64,000 bases of DNA from assembly GCF_009377205.1 (NCBI RefSeq), contig NZ_VJZE01000007.1:1-64000 (forward strand). The letters are read 5' to 3'. Within the stretch, counting starts at the first letter, position 1, and each line of letters starts with the position of its first letter. The stretch is from Streptomyces phyllanthi. GTDB lineage: Bacteria > Actinomycetota > Actinomycetes > Streptomycetales > Streptomycetaceae. The notes beneath the pieces are model-generated. The model did no database searches, was not told where the DNA came from, and saw only the letters and a program-made list of their open reading frames with translations. Positions 46,502 through 48,472 of the stretch are shown in pieces. A program made the position numbers and the translations under genes.

Positions 46502-48472
<1,971 letters not shown>

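Follow-up and report, generated by a model that had tools for sequence, protein, structure and literature searches.

The window, by which we mean the whole 64-kb stretch of DNA analyzed, carries on its minus strand a gene that scored far over the cut-offs of both ThiC models, NF006763 and TIGR00190, in a profile search (Table 1). Upstream of this thiamine gene, whose start is position 48331, sits a predicted aptamer that matched RF00059 over the full length of the model (1 to 105; E = 9.8e-7 in a 401-base search). Because the match is under the gathering score of 54.3 bits, it is missing from the Rfam table of the whole window; six relatives with parS-bearing arms scored 37.1 to 44.8 bits and were likewise under this threshold. 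The thiC leader resembles RF00059 (the THI element) in its full-length match and its position before thiC, and differs from it in possessing a long arm with a likely protein-binding DNA palindrome and in scoring below the cut-off. The model skips 53 positions of this arm, in the stem after CUGAGA. We take the variable arm to be the "facultative stem" of the aptamer, which presumably lies outside the ligand-binding core. Binding of TPP and switching of expression by the thiC leader are the putative functions of the aptamer.

The tip of the variable arm is a palindrome (window sequence GCGATGTTCCACGTGAAACATCGC), within which the 14-mer GTTCCACGTGAAAC at 48405-48418 differs from GTTTCACGTGAAAC at one position. 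The sequence-only reading had reported a parS-like hairpin, one mismatch from parS, in the variable arm of the thiC aptamer, and the observation is real. The description by one mismatch is accurate with respect to GTTTCACGTGAAAC but undersells the site, whose central 16 bases are identical to the natural parS of the Bacillus subtilis parB gene. B. subtilis ParB binds this 16-mer specifically, and binding studies have employed it as their specific substrate (PMC4333373); it is termed the optimal B. subtilis sequence in PMC8299390, and PMC4333373 names TGTTTCACGTGAAACA as optimal. The thiC-arm site is a palindrome of 14 to 16 bp with no more than one mismatch to TGTTTCACGTGAAACA, and its halves are GTTCCAC and GTTTCAC, the two half-sites preferred by Pseudomonas aeruginosa ParB (PMC10419367). 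At 70% G+C, only 0.0017 matches to parS with one or no mismatch are expected by chance per 64 kb. Allowing up to three mismatches, the window has eight matches, and the mean in shuffled sequence is 1.05. As RNA, the palindrome is predicted to form a hairpin of 10 bp with a 4-nt loop and one U-G pair; the fold of the whole 166-nt leader is not unusual when compared with shuffles (z = -1.47). Beyond parS, the palindrome continues for 5 further pairs, and the idea that this extension is special to thiC was dropped because the remaining 26 sites in the genome include 5 with extensions of 7 or more.

The window lies in the parS zone, an origin-proximal cluster known from the parS sites themselves. 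Of the 27 sites in the source genome, 21 are exact and 6 have one mismatch, 4 of these 6 being the same variant as the thiC site; the window accounts for 5 of the exact and 3 of the one-mismatch sites. The other site of this kind listed in Table 1, at 55838, is flanked on each side by eight bases that the source genome shares with G009 (L349:496), indicating a second location at which a one-mismatch parS has been conserved. In the complete genome G009, all 24 sites with zero or one mismatch, thiC among them, fall within 0.34 Mb (4.69 to 5.03 of 9.4 Mb). In G027, 20 of 21 sites are near both ends of a 6.9-Mb contig, where thiC is also located, and one is far off. Even in G065 and G098, whose arms lack parS, thiC is still situated between parS sites. 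A single match to TIGR00180 (ParB family) occurs in the source genome, beside a gene for a ParA-like ATPase on a contig that carries nine exact parS sites (C110). Alignments with solved ParB and Noc chains place R and G, unlike Noc, at the two positions of this protein by which ParB and Noc differ in specificity according to PMC7383237; these are residues of the parS-specific type.

Table 1. Positions, strands and supporting evidence of features in the 64-kb window.
Feature	Position	Strand	Basis or context
Three exact parS within 88 bp (37713, 37749, 37787)	37713..37800	.	
thiC, phosphomethylpyrimidine synthase, 609 aa	46502..48331	minus	NF006763 981 bits, TIGR00190 703.8 bits
TPP riboswitch aptamer RF00059	48324..48480	minus	40.8 bits, below gathering score
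Variable (facultative) aptamer arm, 73 nt, between CUGAGA and ACCUG	48371..48443	minus	leader comparison
24-nt palindrome, predicted RNA hairpin GCGAUGUUUC-ACGU-GGAACAUCGC at arm tip, one U-G wobble	48400..48423	minus	predicted folds
parS-like 16-mer TGTTCCACGTGAAACA, identical to natural parS of B. subtilis parB gene	48404..48419	.	sequence; PMC4333373, PMC8299390
GCGAT, 5' of parS on thiC sense strand	48419..48423	minus	
One-mismatch parS, same kind as thiC site (GTTTCACGTGGAAC)	55838..55851	.	
Exact parS	58851..58864	.	
Exact parS in longer palindrome (7 further pairs)	60511..60524	.	between plus-strand ORF ending 60469 and minus-strand ORF ending 60576

ThiC matches were present in 149 of 150 sampled Streptomyces genomes, and leaders were located from the places of these matches; 149 fetched loci and the window yielded 149 arms from 148 genomes. 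Left out of the set were G073 (no ThiC match), G037 (place not listed) and locus L213, which is one of three ThiC matches in G025 (L140, L151 and L213) and lacks the TPP leader motif in the fetched stretch. The best match to parS had no mismatches in 9 arms, one mismatch in 58, two to four in none, and five to nine in 82. The sequence-only reading had proposed asking of aligned Streptomyces thiC leaders whether the arm is always parS-like. It is so in 67 of the 149 arms and not always, since the remaining 82 are unrelated to parS, indicating that the site is dispensable. The arms without parS vary widely in sequence and length, such that the variable arm may take the form of other stems, in agreement with the earlier claim that it tolerates them.

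The position of parS within the arm is nearly fixed, starting at arm offset 25 in 64 of the 67 cases. The first palindrome occurs as GTTTCACGTGGAAC in 34 arms, GTTTCACATGAAAC in 18, GTTTCACGTGAAAC in 9, GTTTCACGGGAAAC in 4 and GTTCCACGTGAAAC in 2, and the core is changed in 22 arms, to CACATG in 18 and to CACGGG in 4. Outside thiC, CACATG occurs a single time in G009 and G027 taken together, far from the parS cluster; in G009 it is confined to thiC. Its standing as an established parS variant was unsupported, four spellings having no match in the literature searched.

The occurrence of parS in the arm appears on the thiC tree with just 3 changes between presence and absence (mean of 49 after shuffling). 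One clade of 69 rows contains 63 parS arms and another of 6 rows contains 4, and a single origin is not rejected (p-AU = 0.169). A search pattern for parS in the arm, which covers part of the variants and leaders, matched 31 of the 63 Streptomyces genomes in a family sample and none of 137 genomes from 16 other genera. The 30 best-scoring other TPP riboswitch loci of the genus, which span 92 kb and include no thiC leader, lack parS within two mismatches; since they lie elsewhere in their genomes, they serve as a control for the riboswitch class and not for the location. Among named genomes, at least 119 stretches were selected by pattern, of which 118 gave arms. The parS arms among the matches listed include those of S. 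scabiei 87.22 (a short arm like that of the window), S. noursei, S. canus and a strain labelled S. violaceoruber; S. coelicolor A3(2) and S. venezuelae are absent among the matches listed (at least 119 stretches).

Within the 63 arms of the main clade, the 14 parS columns experienced 23 changes on the thiC tree, confined to four columns (1, 8, 3 and 11), leaving 10 that never changed; in this and the following counts the rows are related, and P values treat changes as independent. Fourfold-degenerate sites in thiC (n = 38) average 11.6 changes per site, and 14 drawn at random never summed to fewer than 98 in 20,000 draws. The columns directly 3' of parS in the main clade changed 17, 12, 9 and 19 times. 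The five directly 5' of it (GCGAT) changed only 2, 2, 1, 3 and 2 times, and columns 6 to 9 before parS changed 9 to 15 times. The low incidence of change in parS and GCGAT, and the high incidence beyond them, define a conserved block consisting of parS plus five 5' bases. In the 19 short arms alone, there are 4 changes in the 14-mer, 8 in the five columns before it and 15 in the five after it (23 for the ten flanking columns).

The parS arms are of two sizes, 19 of them short (70 to 81 nt) and 48 long (90 to 107 nt). A second palindrome (palindrome 2), 1 to 10 mismatches away from parS, is present in the long arms. Each of its halves pairs with the opposite half of palindrome 1 (first with second, second with first), which gives one long hairpin. 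Across the 48 long arms, standard pairs make up 465 of 480 cross pairs and, within the second palindrome, 214 of 240 self pairs. Position 11 of parS covaries with its partner, the two forming a Watson-Crick pair in 36 of the 48 (mean of 23.4 and maximum of 32 upon shuffling, which ignores relatedness). The predicted folds of the long arms are cross-paired in 43 cases, self-paired in 2 and otherwise in 3, and 18 of the 19 short arms are predicted to form a single hairpin. With the folds as expected in these 18 short and 43 long arms, and with both parS letters and pairing kept, the comparison supports the earlier proposal that one palindrome may serve as DNA site and RNA stem, and the letters of the DNA and the pairing of the RNA both seem to be constrained.

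The side of the palindrome on which the variant base falls provides a further view of the RNA. Either side yields the same duplex DNA, but on the thiC sense strand one side has a U-G pair and the other a C-A mismatch. Changes number 11 at position 11, where U-G is kept, and 1 at the mirror position 4, where C-A would result (P = 0.006, two-sided, if changes are independent); the variant base nearly always keeps the U-G pair in the RNA. In both arms with C at position 4, a G stands opposite in palindrome 2. Among 42 distinct short arms, pattern-selected named arms included, the outer pairs change type in a minority: pair 1 is T-A in 34, C-G in 4 and T-G in 3, and pair 2 is A-T in 30, G-C in 8, C-G in 1 and G-T in 1.

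In the long arms, the two palindromes have changed to different extents, with 22 changes in palindrome 1 (the parS copy) versus 71 in palindrome 2 (its partner). A match to parS with no more than one mismatch is retained by all 48 first palindromes, which is so by definition, and by 8 of the 48 second palindromes; the rule defining palindrome 1 as within one mismatch left out one long arm only (L172). Stem columns of the inner half show 11 changes in parS, every one of them at a single column, and 17 in the partner. Two of the four parS loop columns are unchanged throughout: columns 6 and 7 never change, and those of the second palindrome changed 14 and 1 times. The outer flank is asymmetric in the same direction (4 changes in GCGAT versus 28 in its 3' partners), so the difference between strands is not specific to parS alone. 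The conservation of GCGAT, which nearly equals that of parS, as its partners drift suggests that something besides the 14- to 16-bp ParB site also keeps the 5' strand. In the five pairs of the inner flank, the direction is reversed, with 56 changes on the parS side versus 33 on the partner side. The outer part of the asymmetry thus stems from a different or a further cause, and a parS fits its inner part and the sharp 3' border.

These results are best explained, and probably so, by a genuine origin-proximal parS that occupies the variable stem of the TPP riboswitch before thiC and is kept under two constraints. As duplex DNA, the palindrome would be one of roughly two dozen loading sites for the chromosomal ParB in the parS zone; its RNA form would be the hairpin tip of a facultative arm that accepts other stems, and which would lie outside the aptamer core that binds TPP. 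A parS may have settled in the arm of the main clade, and possibly again in the second clade, and would have been kept there as one of many ParB loading sites, with the demands of the RNA keeping changes in the arm paired. Comparison among leaders, at the level of sequence, demonstrates the location of the site, its identity as parS, the conservation of its letters and that of the RNA pairing. We infer that ParB binds the thiC-arm site in the cell and that it is the reason for the conservation of the letters; the DNA and RNA uses presumably do not disturb each other much. The CACATG and CACGGG cores, putative ParB sites, count against this reading, as do the conserved GCGAT and the 82 arms that lack parS.

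It is also conceivable, though unlikely, that the arm serves solely as an RNA stem, with perhaps some need for its 5' strand, whose likeness to parS is inherited and unused by ParB. The few changes on the thiC tree and the possible single origin favor this view; the 5' flank is conserved too, with the same strand asymmetry, and some arms with changed cores keep the RNA hairpin. Pairing leaves unexplained, however, the two unchanged loop columns of parS, the sharp end of conservation at its 3' border, and the absence of arms with two to four mismatches. Much harder to credit is a mobile palindromic repeat that contains parS and was inserted at thiC by chance. Palindromes of parS with long inverted flanks do occur elsewhere in the genome, and the long arms resemble a duplicated palindrome, but in the one genome compared, flanks mostly differ among its 27 sites and from those at thiC, and a chance insertion does not account for the nearly constant offset of parS in the arm.

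The genuine parS that we favor could extend, without conflict, to coupling, in which ParB at the leader would repress thiC transcription or make it pause, or transcription of thiC would dislodge ParB. The aptamer encloses the site, placing it in the transcribed leader, and ParB at parS3 and parS4 represses adjacent genes in P. aeruginosa (PMC5521831). That 82 of the 149 arms manage without parS speaks against such coupling, which we consider decidedly improbable. A broader conjecture, slightly less doubtful although still quite unlikely, is that the thiC leader is bifunctional and links ParB loading with riboswitch expression, such that the state of segregation (e.g., at sporulation) would tune vitamin B1 synthesis or transcription would tune ParB loading, and that Streptomyces habitually places parS in hairpins that are transcribed, among them terminator-like palindromes between convergent genes.

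The thiC site has counterparts in several known systems. It is like the origin-proximal parS sites of the Streptomyces ParABS system, of which S. coelicolor has 24 (PMC12207404, PMC4852455) and S. venezuelae 16 or 17 confirmed by ChIP (PMC4852455, PMC12511625), in its consensus, its clustering and its chromosomal ParB, but differs in lying inside a ligand-sensing RNA and in changing in step with RNA pairing. Within the B. subtilis parB gene, parS has the identical 16-mer and is likewise embedded in sequence with another job (PMC4333373), which is protein coding in that case and RNA structure at thiC. The P. aeruginosa sites parS3 and parS4 are also ParB sites near gene expression signals; they are by promoters, with repression shown (PMC5521831), whereas the candidate site at thiC is in the leader. 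Both parS and the TPP riboswitch are well known, and their overlap in one sequence across a large part of a genus is absent from the literature searched: no report of a parS inside a riboswitch was found among the literature matches listed.

In many Streptomyces, a near-origin palindrome appears to be at once a docking site for ParB and the side arm of a thiamine sensor before thiC. In this natural case, a protein seems to recognize one short sequence as DNA, and base pairing seems to use the same sequence as RNA. The long arms partly supply their own control, in the form of a second palindrome paired with the first. An expendable riboswitch arm can, on this reading, house a chromosome-organizing site, and the effect of ParB in a 5' leader on a metabolic gene becomes testable. 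The overlap also suggests that surveys of parS should consider the RNA context of sites.

Other parS sites also occur in extended palindromes. Exact parS sites within long perfect palindromes (7 to 17 further pairs) make up 5 of the source genome's 26 other sites (window 60511-60524; L333:15791 and 15846; L335:1482; L337:1376) and 3 of 23 in G009 (L351:474; L354:544 and 589). A rough gene call puts three of them (L335 and both in L354) between convergent genes and gives two (in L333) plus-strand genes on both sides; the ORFs around the 60511 site also converge. These long palindromes look like terminators, and parS may more widely be kept in hairpins that are transcribed. The triple parS at 37713-37800 is at the border of two minus-strand genes, also by a rough gene call.

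Two additional elements were noted in the window. The sequence GTTTCACGGGAAAC, one half of which is that of parS and the other half of which (GTTTCCC) resembles a Noc site, occurs once each in the source genome (window 17621-17634), G009 (L345:496), G065 and G098, near the parS zone, with flanks that are alike in the window and G009. The Streptomyces sRNA Scr3920 (RF02828, 145.9 bits) is on the minus strand at 54663-54787, and it also occurs in the thiC loci of S. scabiei and, under the gathering score, S. noursei.
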